This document shows positions 24,622-36,349 of a stretch of 37,214 bases of DNA, one piece after another. The position numbers and the translations under genes are program-made. This DNA is from Candidatus Sumerlaeota bacterium (lineage in GTDB: Bacteria; Sumerlaeota; Sumerlaeia; JAFGJS01): positions 1 through 37,214 of the forward strand of contig JAFGJS010000158.1 of the NCBI GenBank assembly GCA_016928995.1, in the 5' to 3' direction. How positions within the stretch are numbered: position 1 is the first letter of the stretch; every line of letters starts with the position of its first letter. The notes under the pieces were generated by a model. That model did no database searches. It was not told the origin of the DNA and was given only the letters and a program-made list of their open reading frames with translations.

Positions 24622-25872
24622 CTATGCAGGATTTTTTTGCGTCTTGCGCGGGATGAAGCAGGCGAGGACCAGCGCGACGCAGGCGAGCACGGCGAGCGTG
24701 GCGAGACCGATGCTGTAGCGCTCCGGACCGCGATCCTGGAATATTTTCATCACCAGTCCCCAGATGCCGAGTCCGAAGATGGCGGAGAAGCGGCCGGTCA
24801 GCGCGTTGAAACCGAAGAACGTGGCCGTTTGCTCCTCTGGCACGAGCGTCAGCAGCAGCGGCCGGGTCACGGTCCAGGCGCCGGCGAGACCGAAGCCGAT
24901 GAACACGGCCGCGACCTGGATGAGGCGGTGCTGCGTGTCGAGGACGAGCAACAGTAGCGTGGCGATCCAGAGCACAATGACGCCCAGCAATGCGTTTTTT
25001 GGGTGATACTTTTCGGCGAGCCAACCGATGGGCCAGGCCGCGAGCATGGCCGCCACAATGCCCAACGTCAGGAATCCCTTGCATTGTGCATCTGAGAATT
25101 GCGCGGCCTCGTTCAGGTAGAGCCCCAGGTTGGCGTAAACCGCATTGACGCCATTGAGGAAGAGGAACGAGACGATGAGGAAAATCCAGGCCTGCCGATG
25201 CTCGCGCAGCGCCTGCCAGGTTTGGCGCAGGTTTTCGCGCAGACCGCCATTCTGTTTTTCATGCATCGGCGGACCTTCCGGCGCCAGCAGCATGCAGGGG
25301 AGTGCGAAGATCAGAAAGAATACCGCCGTCCAGATAAACGCGTGCGGCGCATTCACGACGCCATCCGAGCCCTGCGCCAGCCGGCCGACGATGTGCAGTC
25401 CGGCGATGGATCCGAGGTAGCCCACGCCCACGCCAATGCCGGAGATCTGATTCTGCCGATCCGGCGGCGCCACGTAGGTCAACAGGCTGTCGTAGAACGT
25501 GCTGGCCAGGTAGTAGGCCGCGGCGGCGCAGATGAACAGGCCCAGCGCGGGAATCGCGGACGGCGCAAAGGCCAGGCTGGCCGTGGCCACGATGCAAAGG
25601 ATCGTGCTCAGATTCAGCAGCCATCTTCGCCGGGCATGCGCGTCGGCCCAATGCCCCAAGGGCGGCGCAATGATCAGCACGATGGCCATCGCTCCGATCA
25701 GCGCGTAGTTGTAGCTGTAATCCGCGACGTCCTGTGTGTCATTCAGCCAGACGGGAAAGTAGAGCGTGATGATGTTCAGCGAAAAGATCGTGTTCGCCAG
25801 ATCATACAACGCCCACGCCCCGGCGCGCACCGGGCTAGTGGGAGGAAGAATCGGTTTGGAAGAATGGGCCAT
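24622..25872 (-). CDS. MFS transporter, UMF1/Atg22-like
   Basis: 416 residues with 12 predicted membrane helices. The N-terminal AWALYDLANTIFSLNII is the signature of UMF1 (unknown major facilitator) and Atg22-like proteins, and the cytoplasmic loop GHWADAHARRRWLLN between helices 2 and 3 is the MFS motif-A equivalent. The midpoint loop (MHEKQNGGLRENLRQTWQALR, split here for length: MHEKQNGG and LRENLRQTWQALREH) separates the two six-helix halves. Substrates of UMF1 proteins are unknown; eukaryotic Atg22 exports amino acids from vacuoles. The gene lies between fabD and the corrinoid cluster and could serve either neighbour or neither. Confidence 0.88.
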   Translation of the reverse strand: MAHSSKPILPPTSPVRAGAWALYDLANTIFSLNIITLYFPVWLNDTQDVADYSYNYALIGAMAIVLIIAPPLGHWADAHARRRWLLNLSTILCIVATASLAFAPSAIPALGLFICAAAAYYLASTFYDSLLTYVAPPDRQNQISGIGVGVGYLGSIAGLHIVGRLAQGSDGVVNAPHAFIWTAVFFLIFALPCMLLAPEGPPMHEKQNGGLRENLRQTWQALREHRQAWIFLIVSFLFLNGVNAVYANLGLYLNEAAQFSDAQCKGFLTLGIVAAMLAAWPIGWLAEKYHPKNALLGVIVLWIATLLLLVLDTQHRLIQVAAVFIGFGLAGAWTVTRPLLLTLVPEEQTATFFGFNALTGRFSAIFGLGIWGLVMKIFQDRGPERYSIGLATLAVLACVALVLACFIPRKTQKNPA

Positions 25873-25920: not shown

Positions 25921-26943
25921 TCAACTCGCCCGGTAACGGCGGCCGGCGCGCATGAAGGCGTGGATGTTCTCCAGCGGCGTCTCCTGCGGCAGGTCACAGC
26001 CCGTGCTGAGGATGAAGTTGGAGTACGGCGCCATTTTTTTCAGCAGGTTGGTCACTTCCGCTTCCACGTCCTGCGATTTGCCGGTGAGCATGCAGCCGGT
26101 CGGATTGATGTTGCCCATCACGGCCACGTCCTCGGGCAGTTTTTGCGCGACCGCCGGAAGATCGACGCCGGCCACGGGCGAGTCGAGGCTAACGGCGCTC
26201 ACTCCGGCGCCGGCCATCTGATCCAGCAAGTGCATGGTGTTGCCGCAGGTGTGGTAGACCGTGGCCACGCCGGTGTACTTGCAGCTCTCGATGATGTGGC
26301 GGATATAATTCGCGGAGAACGCGCCAAATTGCTCCGGTCCAAGCATCACGGCGCTGGGTTCGAGCACGCAAAGCACCTGGGCGCCGGCGGCGATGAGCAG
26401 CCGCGCATATTCCTGGATTCTTTCCGTGGCGTACTGGCAAACTGCGTGCAGCTCGTCAGGCTTCAGGACGGTGGCCATGGCCGCCTCGCCAGCTCCCATC
26501 ATCAGCGCCGCGAGGGTGTATGGACCCGTGACATAGGCGCCTTTCAGGATCGAATCGGGAAGGCCGATGCACATCAGTTTCATCGTTTCAACATAACCCA
26601 GCAGCCGTGTGTCGAAGGCGATGTTGACCTGCGCGCGTTGGGTGAGTTCATCCACGGAAAATTCGCCCTGGACAACGGTGGCGGACTCCGCCTGGGGAAA
26701 GACGGTGTAGCGTCCGAGCGCGTTGGCCTCGACGGCCAGGTCCATCAAGGGGAAGATCACATCCGGCTCGAAAGCCTCGGCGATCGCCTTCATCACCTTG
26801 AAGTGCTCGCCATAGTTCTGCTGCGCGAGTTTAATCGTACAGCCGGTCATGTTGAGTCCGGGGAATCCAACCAGCGGCACAACCAGGCGGCGGCCTTCAT
26901 TTTGCGCTCTGCGAAATTTCTCGCGAAAAGGATTTTGCGTCAT
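25921..26943 (-). CDS. UroD-like methyltransferase (MtaA/CmuA type), copy 1
   Basis: 340 residues. This is the uroporphyrinogen-decarboxylase superfamily, in which corrinoid methyltransferases such as MtaA and CmuA use zinc held by a His-x-Cys pair and a later Cys. All three are visible: H231 and C233 in VYHTCGN, and C316 in LSTGCDLPQETPLENIHAF. Other barrel strands are FPLMDLAVEANALG (64-77), GAYVTGPYTLAALM and MGNINPTG. True UroD keeps other catalytic residues and not this zinc set, so heme synthesis is unlikely. It likely moves methyl groups between a corrinoid protein and a substrate or thiol. It is 39 bp downstream of copy 2, and the corrinoid protein gene is divergent from the pair. Confidence 0.9.
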   Translation of the reverse strand: MTQNPFREKFRRAQNEGRRLVVPLVGFPGLNMTGCTIKLAQQNYGEHFKVMKAIAEAFEPDVIFPLMDLAVEANALGRYTVFPQAESATVVQGEFSVDELTQRAQVNIAFDTRLLGYVETMKLMCIGLPDSILKGAYVTGPYTLAALMMGAGEAAMATVLKPDELHAVCQYATERIQEYARLLIAAGAQVLCVLEPSAVMLGPEQFGAFSANYIRHIIESCKYTGVATVYHTCGNTMHLLDQMAGAGVSAVSLDSPVAGVDLPAVAQKLPEDVAVMGNINPTGCMLTGKSQDVEAEVTNLLKKMAPYSNFILSTGCDLPQETPLENIHAFMRAGRRYRAS

Positions 26944-26982
26944 CGAATGTGCTCCAGGTTGTTACACTCGCATTGTGCCTGC

Positions 26983-27969
26983 TTATGCGTAGCGGCCGGC
27001 GGTTCCATGCTTGATGAATTCTTCGCAGGCATATTCCTGCCACATGGGATCCAGGCCGATGGAGGTATTGTCCCAGTAGTATCCGGCGAGAAATCCGCCG
27101 CGGCCCTTCCAGAGTTTGTCCAGCATTTCCCGAGCCTTGGCGCGGATGATCTCCTCGTCGCGCTTCTGCAGCGTCTTCTGGATATCGACTGGGCACCAGA
27201 AGGTGATCTTGCCATTTTCCTGGTATGAGGCCAGCGTGTCGATGCCGTGAAGGTCGGGCTGGTCGAATTGCAGCAGATCGACGCCCGCTTCCATCAAGCC
27301 GGGGATGATTGCCGCAATCATGCCGCAGGAGTGCATGAAGACCTTGAGATTGAGTTCGTGCGCGATGCCGCAGAGTTTCACGAAGCGCGGAAAGAACTCT
27401 TGCCGCCACATGTCCGGGCTGATCAACAGCTGCGTCTGCGTGCCCCAGTCCTCCAGCAGCATGACGCAATCGCAGCCCTGCGCGGCGTAGTTCCGGATCA
27501 TGTGCTCCAGCATCACGTCGATGCGGTCGTGCAGTTCATGCATCCGGTCCGGCTCAAGGAACAGGTCCATCAGGTACTGATCAAGCTTGCGCATCTTGCG
27601 GGCGATATTGAAGGCGAATCCGGGCAGGTCGCCGATGAGCCACTTGTCAGGATGATCGGCGCGGCGTTTGGCCACGCAGGCGTAGTCTTCCGGCTTGGAG
27701 TAGTCGGGGAATTCGTAGGAGTCCAAGTCTGATATGTTCTGCAGCACGCCTTTGACGACTTCGCCTTTGGATGTTTTGTCAATTCTGGCCCAGAGGTTGC
27801 CCCATTCATCGGTGCGTTCCCAGCGCCCGCCGCCAATCTCGCGCCAATCGGTGGAATGGGTTTGGGCGGAGCATCCGCCGCTGACGATGTCGGAGTTCTT
27901 GAAAGATCGGGCGACGCGTTCCGGTCCTTCGAAGTCAAGCGTGAGTCTTACGATTTCTCGAGCTGTCAT
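26983..27969 (-). CDS. UroD-like methyltransferase, copy 2
   Basis: 328 residues. Zinc-type residues are H213 and C215 in FMHSCGM; a possible third is C259 in ITFWCPVD. The segment MLLEDWGTQTQLLISPDMWR (170-189) is typical of the subgroup of UroD-like proteins associated with corrinoid proteins. N-terminal REIVRLTLDFEGPERV is the normal family start. ATG 27969 has AAGGAAG 6-12 nt upstream; a frame upstream to 28149 has no ribosome site and runs through the promoter region. The substrate is unknown. By analogy with methanol, veratrol-type ether and chloromethane systems, one UroD-like enzyme demethylates the substrate onto the corrinoid and the other may pass it on. Which does which cannot be told. 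Confidence 0.9.
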   Translation of the reverse strand: MTAREIVRLTLDFEGPERVARSFKNSDIVSGGCSAQTHSTDWREIGGGRWERTDEWGNLWARIDKTSKGEVVKGVLQNISDLDSYEFPDYSKPEDYACVAKRRADHPDKWLIGDLPGFAFNIARKMRKLDQYLMDLFLEPDRMHELHDRIDVMLEHMIRNYAAQGCDCVMLLEDWGTQTQLLISPDMWRQEFFPRFVKLCGIAHELNLKVFMHSCGMIAAIIPGLMEAGVDLLQFDQPDLHGIDTLASYQENGKITFWCPVDIQKTLQKRDEEIIRAKAREMLDKLWKGRGGFLAGYYWDNTSIGLDPMWQEYACEEFIKHGTAGRYA

Positions 27970-28020
27970 GTAGTCTTCCTTTGCATGATTGCCGCGACAA
28001 ACACTGTCCGGCCGATTTTG

Positions 28021-28049
28021 ATTATTTTTAAACGTGATGATCAAATCAA
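28021..28049 (-). promoter_or_regulatory. Possible promoter for the UroD-like pair
   Basis: On the minus strand TTGATT (28049-28044), a 17-nt spacer and AATAAT (28026-28021) lie about 50 bp before the copy 2 start. The spacer contains a TGATCA palindrome. Only sequence resemblance supports it. Confidence 0.35.
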
Positions 28050-28111
28050 CGATATTTATATTTTTTATCGGAGAATGTTTTGCCATCGAAATAGATTTGC
28101 CAACGAAGTGC

Positions 28112-28141
28112 TTGACGGGCGGCGATCTGGAATGAATTAAT
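28112..28141 (+). promoter_or_regulatory. Possible promoter for the corrinoid protein genes
   Basis: TTGACG (28112-28117), 18-nt spacer and ATTAAT (28136-28141), about 125 bp before the corrinoid ATG. I see no cobalamin riboswitch B12-box in the leader that follows. Confidence 0.3.
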
Positions 28142-28266
28142 TGTGCCATTATGTGCAGTCCTGAAATGGAATGCGCGGTTGATCGCTGAAGAGCAATGCC
28201 CGGCGCCGTCCGCTTGGCGCGAGCGAAAAATACTTAATCGATTTTGCAATTGCACGGAGGAAGAAG

Positions 28267-28941
28267 ATGGACCAGGTGCTCGGACAGATCGCAGTATGCG
28301 TTGAACGTGGAAAAATCAATATGGCTTCGCCGTTTCCGCCGGACTTGGCCGGTCAGAACGGCGCCGAGGAACTGACGCAAAGCGCGTTGGATGCGGGGCT
28401 TTCCGCTGAGGAAATCTTGAACCAGGGATTGATTGTGGGGATGCAGAAGATCGGCGAGAAATTCCGCAACAATGAGGCGTTCGTGCCGGACGTGCTGCTG
28501 GCGGCCAAGGCGATGAACGCGGCAATGAAATTGCTGGAGCCTTTGTTCAAGGCCGACGCAAATCGATTCAAAGGGACGCTGGTGATGGGCACGGTCGCGG
28601 GCGATTTGCATGACATCGGCAAGAACCTGGCGTCAATGATCATTCAGGGCGCGGGGTGGAAAGTCGTGGACATGGGCGTGGACGTCTCCACGGAGAAATT
28701 CCTGGACGCGATCAAGGCAAACGAAGGCTGCGTGGTGGGCATGTCGGCGCTGCTGACGACGACGATGGCCAACATGGAACAGACCGTCCGGGCGATTAAA
28801 GAGGCGAGTCCTGCGACCAAGGTGATCGTGGGCGGCGCACCACTGAGCCAGGAATTCGCGGACAAGGTGGGCGCCGATTGTTACTGCCCCGATCCGCAGC
28901 GTGGCGCCGAGTTTCTCGAAAGCCTGTCCGCCGGCGCCTGA
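28267..28941 (+). CDS. Corrinoid (B12-binding) methyl-carrier protein
   Basis: 224 residues. The N-terminal four-helix cap (~10-95; LTQSALDAGLSAEEILNQGL) and C-terminal Rossmann-like B12 domain (~100-220) have the MtaC/MttC/MetH-B12 layout. The cobalt ligand motif DxHxxG is D113-L-H115-DIG118 in GDLHDIGKN. The nucleotide-loop segments GMSALLTTT and GGAPLSQEFADKVGAD are intact. The corrinoid is methylated by one partner and demethylated by another. GGAGG is 6 nt before ATG. It precedes the activation-domain gene by 15 nt, and is divergent from the two UroD-like methyltransferases across a 297-bp gap. Confidence 0.95.
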   Translation: MDQVLGQIAVCVERGKINMASPFPPDLAGQNGAEELTQSALDAGLSAEEILNQGLIVGMQKIGEKFRNNEAFVPDVLLAAKAMNAAMKLLEPLFKADANRFKGTLVMGTVAGDLHDIGKNLASMIIQGAGWKVVDMGVDVSTEKFLDAIKANEGCVVGMSALLTTTMANMEQTVRAIKEASPATKVIVGGAPLSQEFADKVGADCYCPDPQRGAEFLESLSAGA

Positions 28942-28956
28942 GTTTCGAATGATACA

Positions 28957-29664
28957 ATGAACGATCCCGGCATTTCAGATCAAACCATCGAAACGGTGAT
29001 TGCATTTGACGAGATTGCCGTTGATGCAGCGTCGTTGATTCAATCAATGGGCTACATCGACTCGGCATGCCCGGAGCCGGTGCGGCTGACGGTTGAGGAG
29101 GCGCTGCTCGAAGCGGCGCCGCATGTTGATATCCGCGGAGGCTATCGGATTTTGCCGGATGATGTGCGGCTGGAAAATTCCGGCGAGATCGAATGCGGCG
29201 CTTGCCGTTTTAAAGTGGGCAAGGTCATCAAGGGGCAACTGCGCAGGGCGCGAAGGCTGGCGTTATTTGCGATCACGATCGGCGATGCGCTGGAAACGCA
29301 GGCGCGTGATTTATTGCGCGGCGATGATCCAGTCAAAGGCTATGTGCTGGATGCTACTGCGTCGCTGATCGTGGAGAGCGCGGCGGACCGGCTGCATGAG
29401 CAGTTGCGCAACGCGGCTGCCGAATGGGGCTGGAAGACCACGAATCGTTTCAGTCCGGGGTATTGCGGCTGGCCGGTCGAGCAGCAGCACATCCTTTTCG
29501 CGCAACTGCCTGCGAAATTCTGCGGCATCACGCTGTCGGAAACGGCCTTGATGCATCCGATCAAGTCGGTCAGCGGCGTCATCGGCCTGGGTGACGGCGT
29601 TGCCTATCATCCCTACCCGTGCGATTTCTGCAACCGCCAGGATTGCTACAAGCGTAAACGCTAG
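28957..29664 (+). CDS. Stand-alone MetH-activation-domain-like protein
   Basis: 235 residues related to the C-terminal reactivation domain of methionine synthase MetH, which binds S-adenosylmethionine and re-methylates oxidised cobalamin. The SAM-binding segment of MetH (RxSxGYxxxP) is seen as RFSPGYCGWP (164-173) after the long helical stretch LFAITIGDALETQARDLL. The C-terminus carries C222-x2-C225-x4-C230 (PCDFCNRQDC), absent in MetH, which could bind metal or an iron-sulfur cluster and may bring in an electron. Such proteins accompany corrinoid methyltransferases in anaerobes. No ribosome site is obvious; the 15-nt distance to the corrinoid stop suggests translational coupling. Confidence 0.85.
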   Translation: MNDPGISDQTIETVIAFDEIAVDAASLIQSMGYIDSACPEPVRLTVEEALLEAAPHVDIRGGYRILPDDVRLENSGEIECGACRFKVGKVIKGQLRRARRLALFAITIGDALETQARDLLRGDDPVKGYVLDATASLIVESAADRLHEQLRNAAAEWGWKTTNRFSPGYCGWPVEQQHILFAQLPAKFCGITLSETALMHPIKSVSGVIGLGDGVAYHPYPCDFCNRQDCYKRKR

Positions 29665-29699
29665 ACCGGATTATCCATTCAGGAATCTTCAAAAAAAAT

Positions 29700-29797
29700 C
29701 TCACGCGAAGGCGCAAAGTCGCGAAGGCCGCTATTAGATATTCACAGAACATGGAATTTGTTCTCCGTGTTCTCTGTGTACTCTGTGGTGAATTTTT
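29700..29797. repeat. Two dispersed repeats in the convergent gap
   Basis: 29700-29729 resembles the CTCACGCGAAGGCGCAAAG repeat class. 29761-29796, read on the minus strand, matches 36798-36834 almost base for base (about 34 of 36): AATTCACCACAGAGTACAC and onward. Both are non-coding and lie between the activation gene and the homocysteine methyltransferase stop. Confidence 0.5.
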
Positions 29798-29809
29798 TTT
29801 TATATTCTA

Positions 29810-30685
29810 TTAAATTTTTCCGATTGCTTTCGCGATGCAACGGATGTGATCCGGCGATGTGCCGCAGCATCCGCCGACCAGACTGGCGCCTGCCGTGATG
29901 CATTCCTGAATTCCAGCGGCGAAGTCTTCCGGCGTCAGATCAAATACGGTATGGCCGTCCGCCAGACGCGGCTTGCCCGCGTTGGGCTGGGCCATGATCG
30001 GGATGCTGACGGCTTGTTTCATGAAACTCACGATGACGGCGGTTTCGCGAGGATCGAGATCGCCGCAGTTCGCGCCGACGGCTGCCGCACCGGCATCGGC
30101 CATGGCCACGGCGATTTCCCTGGCGGTATTGCCCATGATCGTCCGGCCGCCGTTGGCTGTGGTATTGAAGGAGAGGGAAGCGAGCACGGGGACGTCTGCG
30201 ACATCGCGGCAGGCGCGGACTGCGCAGAGCGCCTCGCGCAGATCGAGCATAGTCTCGACGATGAAGCCGTCAACGCCTCCGGCGAGCAGGAACTCAGCCT
30301 GTTCCTTGAATGTCTCGCAGCATTGATCCTCGGTGTATTCCCCATAGGGTTCGAGCAGTTGGCCGGTCGAACTGATGTCGCCCAGCACATAACGCCCTTC
30401 GCCCGCCGCATTTTTAGCGATCCGCGCGCCAGCGAGATTCACCTCTTTCACATCGATGTTCACGTTGTGCGTTTCAAGATAGATGCGATTCATCGTCAGC
30501 GTGTTGGTGATGAGCAAGTCGCAGCCCGCTTCGCAATAGCGCTTGTGCACCGCGAGCACCTCGTCCGGATGTTGAATGCAGTTCTGGCCGCCCATATCCA
30601 GTCCGGCGAGAGCCAGTTGCGTGCCCATCGCTCCGTCGATCAGGATCGGCGTTGTCGCAGTCGCAATCAATTCAGCAAGCTTCAT
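29810..30685 (-). CDS. Homocysteine S-methyltransferase family protein (MetH/BHMT N-domain)
   Basis: 291 residues, the size of the single homocysteine-binding barrel. IDGAMGTQLALAGLD (16-30) and NTLTMNRIYL are family motifs. The zinc cysteines are C207 in GANCGD and C273-C274 in GGCCGTSPDHI, equivalent to the three MetH ligands. So it should activate homocysteine (or a similar thiol) as the methyl acceptor, probably with the corrinoid protein as donor. ATG 30685 has AAGGAG 10 nt upstream; upstream extension to 30796 has none. It converges on the activation gene and is 145 bp from it. No pterin-binding (folate) module is encoded nearby. Confidence 0.93.
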   Translation of the reverse strand: MKLAELIATATTPILIDGAMGTQLALAGLDMGGQNCIQHPDEVLAVHKRYCEAGCDLLITNTLTMNRIYLETHNVNIDVKEVNLAGARIAKNAAGEGRYVLGDISSTGQLLEPYGEYTEDQCCETFKEQAEFLLAGGVDGFIVETMLDLREALCAVRACRDVADVPVLASLSFNTTANGGRTIMGNTAREIAVAMADAGAAAVGANCGDLDPRETAVIVSFMKQAVSIPIMAQPNAGKPRLADGHTVFDLTPEDFAAGIQECITAGASLVGGCCGTSPDHIRCIAKAIGKI

Positions 30686-31060: not shown

Positions 31061-31858
31061 ATGAATCAGACAGACAAACCCAAACGTCATGCACCGGTTC
31101 GATGGACGGTTGTGTCATTGATGCTTGCGCTGGTTGTCATTGGCGTCGTGACCGTGGCGGGCCTTCACGCGATTCAGGCCAAGGAGGATGATCACACGAT
31201 CCTGTCGCCCGGGCAACCTGGAATCATCCAGCGCATCGAAACTATCCTGCGCAATGATGAGAAGGAGGCGCAGCAGCGCATCAATGAGACATTGAAAGCC
31301 CTGGAAGAGGCGAAGCAGAGCGAAAAGGCTCAAGCGGCGCCGGCTGATAACGATCCATTCGGCAACTGGGCCTTATTCCAGTCGCCCTTTGCCGATAAGG
31401 GCTGGGATCCATTCGGCGAAATGAATCAGATGCGCCGCAACATGGAGCGCGTGTTCAACGACTCTTTTTCGCGCATGCGCCTGGGAGCGCCGTCTTCGCT
31501 GACGGATGAAGTGATGGCATGGTCGCCTCAGGGCGAATTCGAAGAGACCAACGACGCCTATATCTATCGCTTCGATGTGCCCGGTGTGGATAAAAGCGCG
31601 GTTAACGTCACCCTGGAAGGCAATCGTCTGACCGTGGAAGGGCAGCGTGAATCGCGCATCGAGAAGGAGAATAAAGATAATAATTTCTACCTTCGCGAGA
31701 TCCAACAGGGGCAATTCCAGCGTGTGACGACCGTGCCCCGCGACGTCGATTTGAACGGTAATCTCAAATCGAAACTTGAGAATGGCGTGCTCACTGTGAC
31801 GCTGCCCAAACTGAAGGGTGTGAAGAAGACCGACGCCCAAAAAATCGAGATTCAATGA
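31061..31858 (+). CDS. Membrane-anchored or exported Hsp20 small heat shock protein
   Basis: 265 residues. A basic start (KPKRHAPVR) and a hydrophobic helix (~15-38; VVSLMLALVVIGVVTVAGLH) make a signal anchor, possibly cut after IQA, so the chaperone would act at or outside the inner membrane. Residues ~55-92 are charged and probably coiled-coil. The alpha-crystallin domain (~155-250) has the usual YIYRFDVPGV, VNVTLEGNRLTVEGQRE and LENGVLTVTLPK strands, and the C-terminal IxI motif is IEI (262-264). Typical bacterial Hsp20 is ~150 residues and cytosolic, so the N-terminal half is unusual. The next Hsp20 gene starts 17 nt after its stop. Confidence 0.9.
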   Translation: MNQTDKPKRHAPVRWTVVSLMLALVVIGVVTVAGLHAIQAKEDDHTILSPGQPGIIQRIETILRNDEKEAQQRINETLKALEEAKQSEKAQAAPADNDPFGNWALFQSPFADKGWDPFGEMNQMRRNMERVFNDSFSRMRLGAPSSLTDEVMAWSPQGEFEETNDAYIYRFDVPGVDKSAVNVTLEGNRLTVEGQRESRIEKENKDNNFYLREIQQGQFQRVTTVPRDVDLNGNLKSKLENGVLTVTLPKLKGVKKTDAQKIEIQ

Positions 31859-31875
31859 TAAAGGAGGACGCTCTC

Positions 31876-32454
31876 ATGAACATGAACATGAATAAACTTG
31901 CACCCTGGAACTGGTTCAAAAAGGAAGATGAGACCCATGATGCCGCCCTGCCTGTTCGGAGGGCGGCGGGGGAGGCGCGTCCCGCGCATCCTATCGAACA
32001 GATGCATCGCGAAATGGATCGAGTATTCGACGACTTTTTTCGCGGAACTGGCGTTTCGCCTTGGCGGCATTCGTCGCTCGCATCGCCGGGATGGAACGAT
32101 AACGGCTGGCTCAAACCCAGCGTGGACATCTCGGCCACGGATCAGGAATACGCGATCAACGTGGAACTGCCGGGCGTCAGCGAGAAGGACGTGCAGGTCG
32201 AACTTTCCGGCGACACGTTGCGCATCAGCGGCGAAAAGAAGCATGAGAAAGAAGAGAACGGCAGGGATTTCTACAGCGTCGAGCGCTCCTATGGCGCCTT
32301 TCAGCGCGTGCTGGCCATACCCGATGATGCTCAGGAGGACGGCATCAACGCCGCCTTTAAGAACGGCGTGATGACGATCACGATACCACGCAAGGAGCCT
32401 GGACCGGGATCGAAAGCGAAGCGGATTGAGATCAAGTCCGGAAATTCGCCGTAA
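31876..32454 (+). CDS. Hsp20/alpha-crystallin small heat shock protein
   Basis: 192 residues, no signal, presumably cytosolic: an ATP-independent holdase. The alpha-crystallin domain (~80-172) has PSVDISATDQEYAINVELPG, VELSGDTLRISGEKK, the dimer-loop segment RDFYSVERSYGAFQRV, and FKNGVMTITIP; a C-terminal IxI (IEI, 184-186) follows. AAGGAGG at 31861-31867 with 8-nt spacing selects ATG 31876 over an upstream ATG at 31855 that overlaps the previous stop. It is co-transcribed with the membrane-anchored Hsp20 and ends at the terminator at 32471. Confidence 0.96.
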   Translation: MNMNMNKLAPWNWFKKEDETHDAALPVRRAAGEARPAHPIEQMHREMDRVFDDFFRGTGVSPWRHSSLASPGWNDNGWLKPSVDISATDQEYAINVELPGVSEKDVQVELSGDTLRISGEKKHEKEENGRDFYSVERSYGAFQRVLAIPDDAQEDGINAAFKNGVMTITIPRKEPGPGSKAKRIEIKSGNSP

Positions 32455-36272: not shown

Positions 36273-36349
36273 GTGCCTGTAGCTCAGTTGGATAGAGCGC
36301 TTGCCTCCGGAGCAAGAGGTCGTGGGTTCGAATCCCGCCAGGCACGCCA
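36273..36349 (+). tRNA. tRNA-Arg (anticodon CCG)
   Basis: Full cloverleaf: acceptor GTGCCTG / CAGGCAC, D-arm GCTC / GAGC, anticodon stem CTTGC / GCAAG with loop CTCCGGA (anticodon CCG, reading CGG Arg), variable AGGTC, T-arm GTGGG / CCCGC with TTCGAAT loop, discriminator G and an encoded CCA (36347-36349). Its 3' side is followed by transposase debris. Confidence 0.97.

Follow-up and report, generated by a model that had tools for sequence, protein, structure and literature searches.

Gene content of the locus

The 37,214-nucleotide stretch of DNA analysed here (the window; positions 1 to 37,214 of contig JAFGJS010000158.1, GenBank assembly GCA_016928995.1) is contig C49 of a 4.55-Mb, 92%-complete metagenome-assembled genome (MAG) of Candidatus Sumerlaeota bacterium. 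Between positions 25921 and 30685 it encodes two UroD-family proteins (UroD1 and UroD2), a corrinoid protein (Corr), a reactivation protein (Act), and a homocysteine methyltransferase (HMT), which we favor reading as a corrinoid demethylation system that passes methyl groups to homocysteine. All five open reading frames (ORFs) lie where a first-pass annotation, made from the sequence alone, had placed them, and all match their families above Pfam's own cut-offs, against which the assignments were scored. The residue motifs listed in that annotation are likewise present.

UroD1 (25921-26943, minus strand, 340 aa; PF01208, 180 bits) is an MtaA/MtbA-like methyltransferase with a thiol-type zinc site (H231-C233-C316), and UroD2 (26983-27969, minus strand, 328 aa; PF01208, 47 bits) is a UroD-fold methyltransferase, the proposed donor-side enzyme. 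Corr (28267-28941, plus strand, 224 aa; PF02310 and PF02607, 88 and 68 bits) is a stand-alone corrinoid protein composed of a cap and a B12 domain, with the DxHxxG motif in the form GDLHDIGKN. Act (28957-29664, plus strand, 235 aa; PF02965, 44 bits) is a stand-alone MetH-type reactivation protein with an RxSPGY motif and a C-terminal C222-x2-C-x4-C230, and HMT (29810-30685, minus strand, 291 aa; PF02574, 214 bits) is a homocysteine S-methyltransferase with zinc cysteines in GANC and GGCC.

Metal sites of the two UroD proteins

The best NCBIfam match of UroD1 is methylcobalamin:CoM methyltransferase (127 bits, below the cut-off of 244), and its nearest solved relative is MtaA (4ay7, E 1.7e-14). 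Across about 90 aligned UroD-family proteins, we found the His-Cys-Cys (HCC) triad kept in 65 of 65 UroD1 homologues. The ligand columns of the neighboring UroD proteins read HDG in all 13 members of a group that we call UroDx, HCH in seven proteins, HD- and HDN in one each, and HC(G/W) in UroD2. According to published work, an HCC site is characteristic of S/Se-methyltransferases, and loss of a Cys ligand of O-methyltransferases (PMC10418091). UroD2 has H213 and C215 (counted from its start, ATG 27969) and no third Cys ligand; this column holds W in the window protein and G in two orthologues, and D300 is conserved in a five-sequence alignment. The AlphaFold model of UroD2 (pLDDT 93.5) has MtaA (4ay7, Z 25.9) and UroD structures tied as closest solved folds, while a sequence search against solved structures gave no match, and comparison with plasmids returned weak, partial matches only.

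Both UroD-like enzymes of the first-pass annotation are thus real, but they are not equivalent, UroD1 being of the thiol type and UroD2 not. We found a UroD fold, a His-Cys metal site, and a link to a corrinoid protein, as in UroD-superfamily corrinoid methyltransferases, and methyl transfer between cobalamin and UroD1 or UroD2 is predicted. Since the site of UroD1 is invariant and that of the partner UroD is varied and never HCC, the pattern suggests a constant thiol-side enzyme that is combined with an exchangeable donor-side enzyme. This pairing of a constant UroD of the thiol type with a variable one that is not of this type gives the clearest hint of how the system is organized. A 107-aa ORF in another genome (L112:2942-3265, genome G083) fuses the first ~86 and last ~20 residues of a UroD1 homologue and reads as a UroD1 from which a large internal segment has been deleted in frame.

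Carrier, reactivator, and acceptor

Corr matches the solved structure 1y80 with an E value of 7.6e-53, and its motif and its cap and B12 domains reproduce the layout of MtgC/MtbC-type carriers. Its scores fall below the curated cut-offs (195 of 370 bits for MtgC, 163 of 350 for MtbC, and 173 of 215 for TIGR02370) and the MetH B12 module scores lower still, at 127 bits. An N-terminal extension, CxxxGK(I/V)N...(Y/F)PPD, is common to Corr and its closest relatives, which have 50-64% identity.

The AlphaFold model of Act, built with 12 homologues (pLDDT 87), has TM0269 as its top match (1j6r, TM 0.74/0.87), followed by MetH reactivation domains. The PF02965 score lies above the cut-off of 25 bits, the conserved AdoMet motif (RxxxGY in TM0269-like proteins) is RFSPGY in the window, and the C-terminal C-x2-C-x4-C is also conserved. 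In a genome of the same class (G033), an Act homologue adjoins an 809-aa ORF with an HMT start and a Corr-like part downstream (E 1e-32; L080:4922-8086), an apparent MetH without an activation domain. On the basis of the fold, the RxSPGY motif, and this neighbor, Act is very probably a MetH-type corrinoid reactivator and not a Ram/RACE protein. HMT scores far above the PF02574 cut-off of 22 bits and has all three zinc cysteines.

Conservation across phyla

A scan of about 85,000 genomes for UroD1 yielded 74 loci, which span Lentisphaerae, Bacteroidota/Ignavibacteriota, KSB1, Latescibacterota, Hydrogenedentota, Spirochaetes, Actinomycetota, Cloacimonadota, Planctomycetes, Atribacterota, a Bathyarchaeon, and others. 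When all neighboring ORFs were clustered without prior expectation, the top non-UroD neighbors were HMT (8 loci), Corr (8), and Act (7), with the window counted in each. In six loci (L131, L170, L176, L274, L275, and L285), Corr, HMT, Act, and a second UroD all run the same way, four have the set in variant gene orders (L177, L271, L279, and L286), and more such Corr-HMT-Act-UroD sets occur away from UroD1 among the Corr loci that we fetched. In many relatives the HMT gene adjoins Corr or Act, often 0-170 bp from Corr. Ignavibacteriota/Bacteroidota, Fibrobacterota (Chitinispirillaceae), and Cloacimonadota each show the co-location independently, and Planctomycetota and Spirochaetota have parts of the set. 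The co-occurrence that the first-pass annotation had proposed to look for in gene neighborhoods was therefore found, in several phyla.

Whole-genome searches of 50 UroD1 genomes recovered a Corr relative in 47 (E<=1e-30). At E<=1e-45 it is present in 44 of 50, versus 16 of 78 distant controls (Fisher p 2e-14), and Act at E<=1e-5 is present in 30 of 50 versus 13 of 78 (Fisher p 8e-7); neither p value is corrected for shared ancestry.

Read by eye, one locus has Act and HMT beside MttB-family-like genes (L077:6154-9471) and another has Act beside an MttB-family-like gene (L073:6688-9026), so the reactivator-acceptor pair appears to be used with several donor-enzyme classes. At two other loci (L126:2-3003 and L129:8545-10998), UroD1 adjoins CobT/CobS-like cobalamin synthesis genes and a RACE-like corrinoid activase, which are independent hints of a corrinoid role for UroD1.

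Xylan-associated loci and the methyl donor

Three loci of Melioribacteraceae, one of them from a Melioribacter roseus MAG (L275:3270-11357; the others are L139:35-10993 and L170:2045-11008), have the order GH115 alpha-glucuronidase, GH43 xylosidase, Corr, HMT, (Act), UroDx, with all of these genes co-directional, and in part they also include UroD1. L139 and L170 further contain UxuA and a D-mannonate oxidoreductase-like gene, together with GH88 and a TRAP transporter (L139) or XylA/XylB (L170). Other loci (L131, L133, and L140) encode an arabinonate-dehydratase-like enzyme, an FAH-family protein, and an aldehyde dehydrogenase, and in L131 and L133 a sugar-acid MFS transporter adjoins UroD1.

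In the xylan of hardwoods and grasses, 4-O-methylglucuronate is a major side chain, and the product that GH115 releases from xylan may carry the 4-O-methyl group on its glucuronate. GH115 is covered in PMC3879575. With GH115 and GH43 directly upstream of the set, the donor in the three Melioribacteraceae loci is probably 4-O-methylglucuronate from xylan, and the economical reading is that the system demethylates it ahead of the Uxu pathway. We found no description of corrinoid demethylation of methylglucuronate or methyl sugars in the open-access literature, nor an anaerobic enzyme that removes the 4-O-methyl group of glucuronate. The GH115-GH43-Corr-HMT-UroDx loci provide specific candidate genes for this reaction, in a lineage with a cultured relative.

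The three loci represent a single family and hence the evidence of one lineage, and they do not fix the donor of the window. Its genome has a single GH115 alpha-glucuronidase, on a short contig beside a sigma-factor-like gene and outside polysaccharide loci (L204:4483-7317, G000:C26); no sugar-acid genes were recognized beside it on this short contig. As this GH115 stands alone, without a link to the set, we do not transfer the xylan reading to the window. Among the donors suggested by the first-pass annotation (an ether, a betaine, or a halide), the context in relatives favors an ether.

Host genome and surroundings of the locus

Only two UroD methyltransferase-like proteins, UroD1 and UroD2, are encoded in the genome; its remaining UroD homologue is an ordinary, full HemE on contig C37, and a role of UroD1 or UroD2 as heme enzyme was rejected for this reason. 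A complete MetH (1266 aa, all four modules) is encoded on contig C137. MetH and Corr are the only PF02607 proteins, and FolP and MetH, on contigs C33 and C137, the only pterin-binding (PF00809) proteins, so the 92%-complete genome contains no stand-alone methyl-corrinoid:folate methyltransferase of known type that could take methyl groups from Corr. The partners available to Corr are consequently UroD1, UroD2, and an HMT.

This upholds the earlier description of a corrinoid methyl-transfer unit that has a module for homocysteine as acceptor and lacks one for folate. The view of the set as a MetH with one module swapped did not survive, given the complete MetH and the greater similarity of Corr to MtgC/MtbC than to the MetH B12 module, and for the same complete MetH we rejected the five genes as a MetH replacement. 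The first-pass annotation had named a complete metH elsewhere, together with no conserved co-occurrence, as evidence against itself; the former exists, but the genes do co-occur.

The genes form three units: UroD2-UroD1-MFS (minus strand), Corr-Act (plus strand), and HMT (minus strand), which is convergent on Act. Since HMT is convergent, the single regulated unit of the earlier description is not supported. UroD2 and UroD1 are separated by 39 bp, UroD1 and the MFS transporter gene by 48 bp, and Corr and Act by 15 bp. Given its spacing and direction, the MFS gene (24622-25872, minus strand; PF07690/PF11700) is probably a member of the UroD2-UroD1 unit, and its product could possibly take up the methyl donor. 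The UroD2 start is preceded by AGGAAG. Promoter and Rfam scans of the divergent intergenic region between UroD2 and Corr (27970-28266) placed one promoter-like site on the minus strand, at 28049-28021, and matched no riboswitch; the count of such sites in the region, 5 versus 2.6 expected, is a weak signal, and promoter and terminator scans of the window were near the shuffled background. No riboswitch was matched by Rfam upstream of genes in the window, where the sole Rfam match is a tRNA at 36273. Beside the unit, at 31061-32454, are two adjoining Hsp20-type small heat-shock-like ORFs with no clear link to it.

Proposed mechanism and alternatives

We interpret the locus, with a probability of roughly 55%, as a corrinoid demethylation system in which homocysteine is the methyl acceptor. 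A methyl group would travel from the donor via UroD2 and Corr to HMT and end in methionine. After possible import by the MFS protein, the donor, probably an O-methyl compound, would be bound by UroD2, which would transfer its methyl group to the Co(I) of Corr; methyl-Corr would then dock on HMT, where zinc-bound homocysteine would become methionine. Corr that is oxidized to Co(II) would be restored by Act through reductive methylation with S-adenosylmethionine, like by the C-terminal domain of MetH. UroD1 may be a second methyl port on Corr that most likely delivers surplus methyl groups to another thiol or else draws methyl groups from an S-methyl compound. We infer each catalytic step, its direction, the donor, and the partner of UroD1 from the observed parts, folds, motifs, and conserved association.

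Several observations weigh against this interpretation. Close orthologues of UroD2 (70% and 66% identity) sit away from corrinoid genes, and at 47 of the 74 UroD1 loci, many of them on short contigs, neither Corr, Act, HMT, nor UroD2 was detected nearby. The intact MetH already makes methionine, and a second free HMT on contig C113 could serve in place of the window HMT, which is convergent with Act and whose place among the cluster HMTs was left undecided by an HMT tree, so that orthology is not assignable; its participation is proposed from position and by analogy. Methyl fate also differs among genomes: a Calditrichota locus (L281:7996-13873) reads as Corr, MetF, a MetV-like gene, a pterin methyltransferase, and Fhs, with gene names taken from the sequence, and suggests that a corrinoid protein closely related to Corr has folate as its acceptor there.

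Possible, though rather unlikely in our judgment, is a path from UroD2 over Corr to UroD1, which would methylate a small thiol (sulfide, methanethiol, or another) and release the methyl group as methanethiol or dimethyl sulfide, like methanogen MtaA/MtbA, with HMT as a separate function. The MtaA-type HCC site of all UroD1 homologues, MtaA as nearest solved relative, and the convergent HMT on its own transcript fit this path, and anaerobes that O-demethylate and methylate sulfide exist, such as Holophaga foetida; however, HMT is among the commonest neighbors of UroD1 and in many relatives lies next to Corr at the short distances given above. It is improbable that the locus is instead akin to type 1 mlp clusters and salvages methyl-selenium or methyl-sulfur, with both UroD proteins demethylating S/Se-methyl compounds and the methyl group going to methionine, the end point proposed for these clusters (PMC10418091). 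The kinds of parts are shared (at least two UroD proteins, a corrinoid protein, no folate methylase) and UroD1 is HCC, but type 1 Mlps are HCC bar a few Mlp1 exceptions and UroD2 is not, Act takes the place of the Ram/RACE activase that type 1 clusters carry, and the window genes are divergent.

Even less probable is a back-up methionine synthase fed by methyl-tetrahydrofolate, in which a UroD protein, as a member of the MetE superfamily, would load Corr from folate. Fold comparison confirms a fold common to UroD and MetE, and in genome G167 a distant UroD1 homologue (41%) lies, as read by eye, beside an apparent MetF-like and then a formate-tetrahydrofolate ligase-like gene; yet a UroD-family folate methyltransferase is not known to exist, the HCC site is thiol-binding, MetH is intact, and the Calditrichota locus has a true pterin-binding methyltransferase-like gene beside Corr. 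The least probable reading, that the five genes are chance neighbors without joint function, is already unlikely: most relatives in the genome's class do not have the full set close together, but this leaves its independent co-location in the other phyla to be explained.

Within the demethylation system that we favor, we tentatively suggest that the window is one form of a widespread anaerobic demethylation of sugar methyl ethers, with UroD1, Corr, Act, and HMT as core and interchangeable donor enzymes: the UroDx proteins (HDG) of Ignavibacteriota/Bacteroidota might take the 4-O-methyl group of GH115-released glucuronate, and the window UroD2 the methyl group of another methylated sugar or alcohol. 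If true, this would be an apparently undescribed route for removing methyl ethers from sugars that recurs in anaerobes of several phyla. The loci suggest that a modular kit couples corrinoid demethylation to methionine synthesis, with an exchangeable donor enzyme and a constant carrier, reactivator, and acceptor.

Comparison with known systems

Our literature search, which was mostly without subscription papers, found no description of this combination of parts known from corrinoid O-demethylases, split MetH, mlp clusters, and MtgBCDE. The type 1 mlp clusters of Kountz & Balskus (PMC10418091) are alike in having a stand-alone corrinoid protein and at least two methyltransferases of the UroD family that are close to methanogen SCMTs, in lacking a folate methylase, and in methionine as the proposed end point. 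They differ by their Ram/RACE activases, HCC Mlps, and co-directional genes, whereas the window has MetH-type activation, one non-HCC UroD, and a PF02574 homocysteine methyltransferase in the conserved set. Where type 1 clusters have at least two HCC Mlps, the window has one HCC and one HCW protein; its genes are not co-directional without a divergent gene between them; and among the six locus proteins, to which this search was confined, there is PF02965 and no RACE family. The lack of a tetrahydrofolate methylase within 20 kb is shared.

Split MetH systems with MtgBCDE (Phaeobacter, PMC5764234; Ruegeria pomeroyi, PMC12478193) resemble the locus in a stand-alone corrinoid protein that methionine synthesis shares with the demethylation of an external compound, and in a separate PF02574 homocysteine module. 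Their own features are betaine loading by the MttB-family MtgB, the pterin-binding MtgD, and RamA-like/DUF1638 activation; in the window the loader is a UroD protein, a pterin module is absent, and the activation protein is of the PF02965 type. Neither the MtgB nor the MtgD family is present among the locus proteins. UroD-type O-demethylase and haloalkane systems (Odm, Vdm, MtvB, MtoB, and CdmB; PMC13222342) share the UroD-fold methyltransferase I, the corrinoid carrier, and the non-HCC site, but they act on aromatic ethers or haloalkanes, their pterin-binding methyltransferase II transfers the methyl group to tetrahydrofolate, and their activating enzyme depends on ATP.

UroD1 has the fold and HCC site of the methanogen SCMTs MtaA, MtbA, and MtsA, but it scores far below the family cut-offs, and use of coenzyme M is not indicated. 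Act has the fold of TM0269, the separate reactivator of the Thermotoga MetH TM0268. In TM0268 the methionine synthase modules form a single chain, whereas the corrinoid and homocysteine modules of the window are separate and the folate module is absent; instead of the four modules of MetH in one chain, the unit has three separate ORFs, and PF00809 is missing from it. Reactivation of the PF02965 type, which is known from MetH, would extend to demethylase-type corrinoid proteins. Because the locus departs from type 1 mlp clusters and MtgBCDE in tested defining features, and from UroD-type O-demethylases in acceptor and reactivator, we file it as a putative variant of the corrinoid demethylases with a homocysteine acceptor and MetH-type reactivation.

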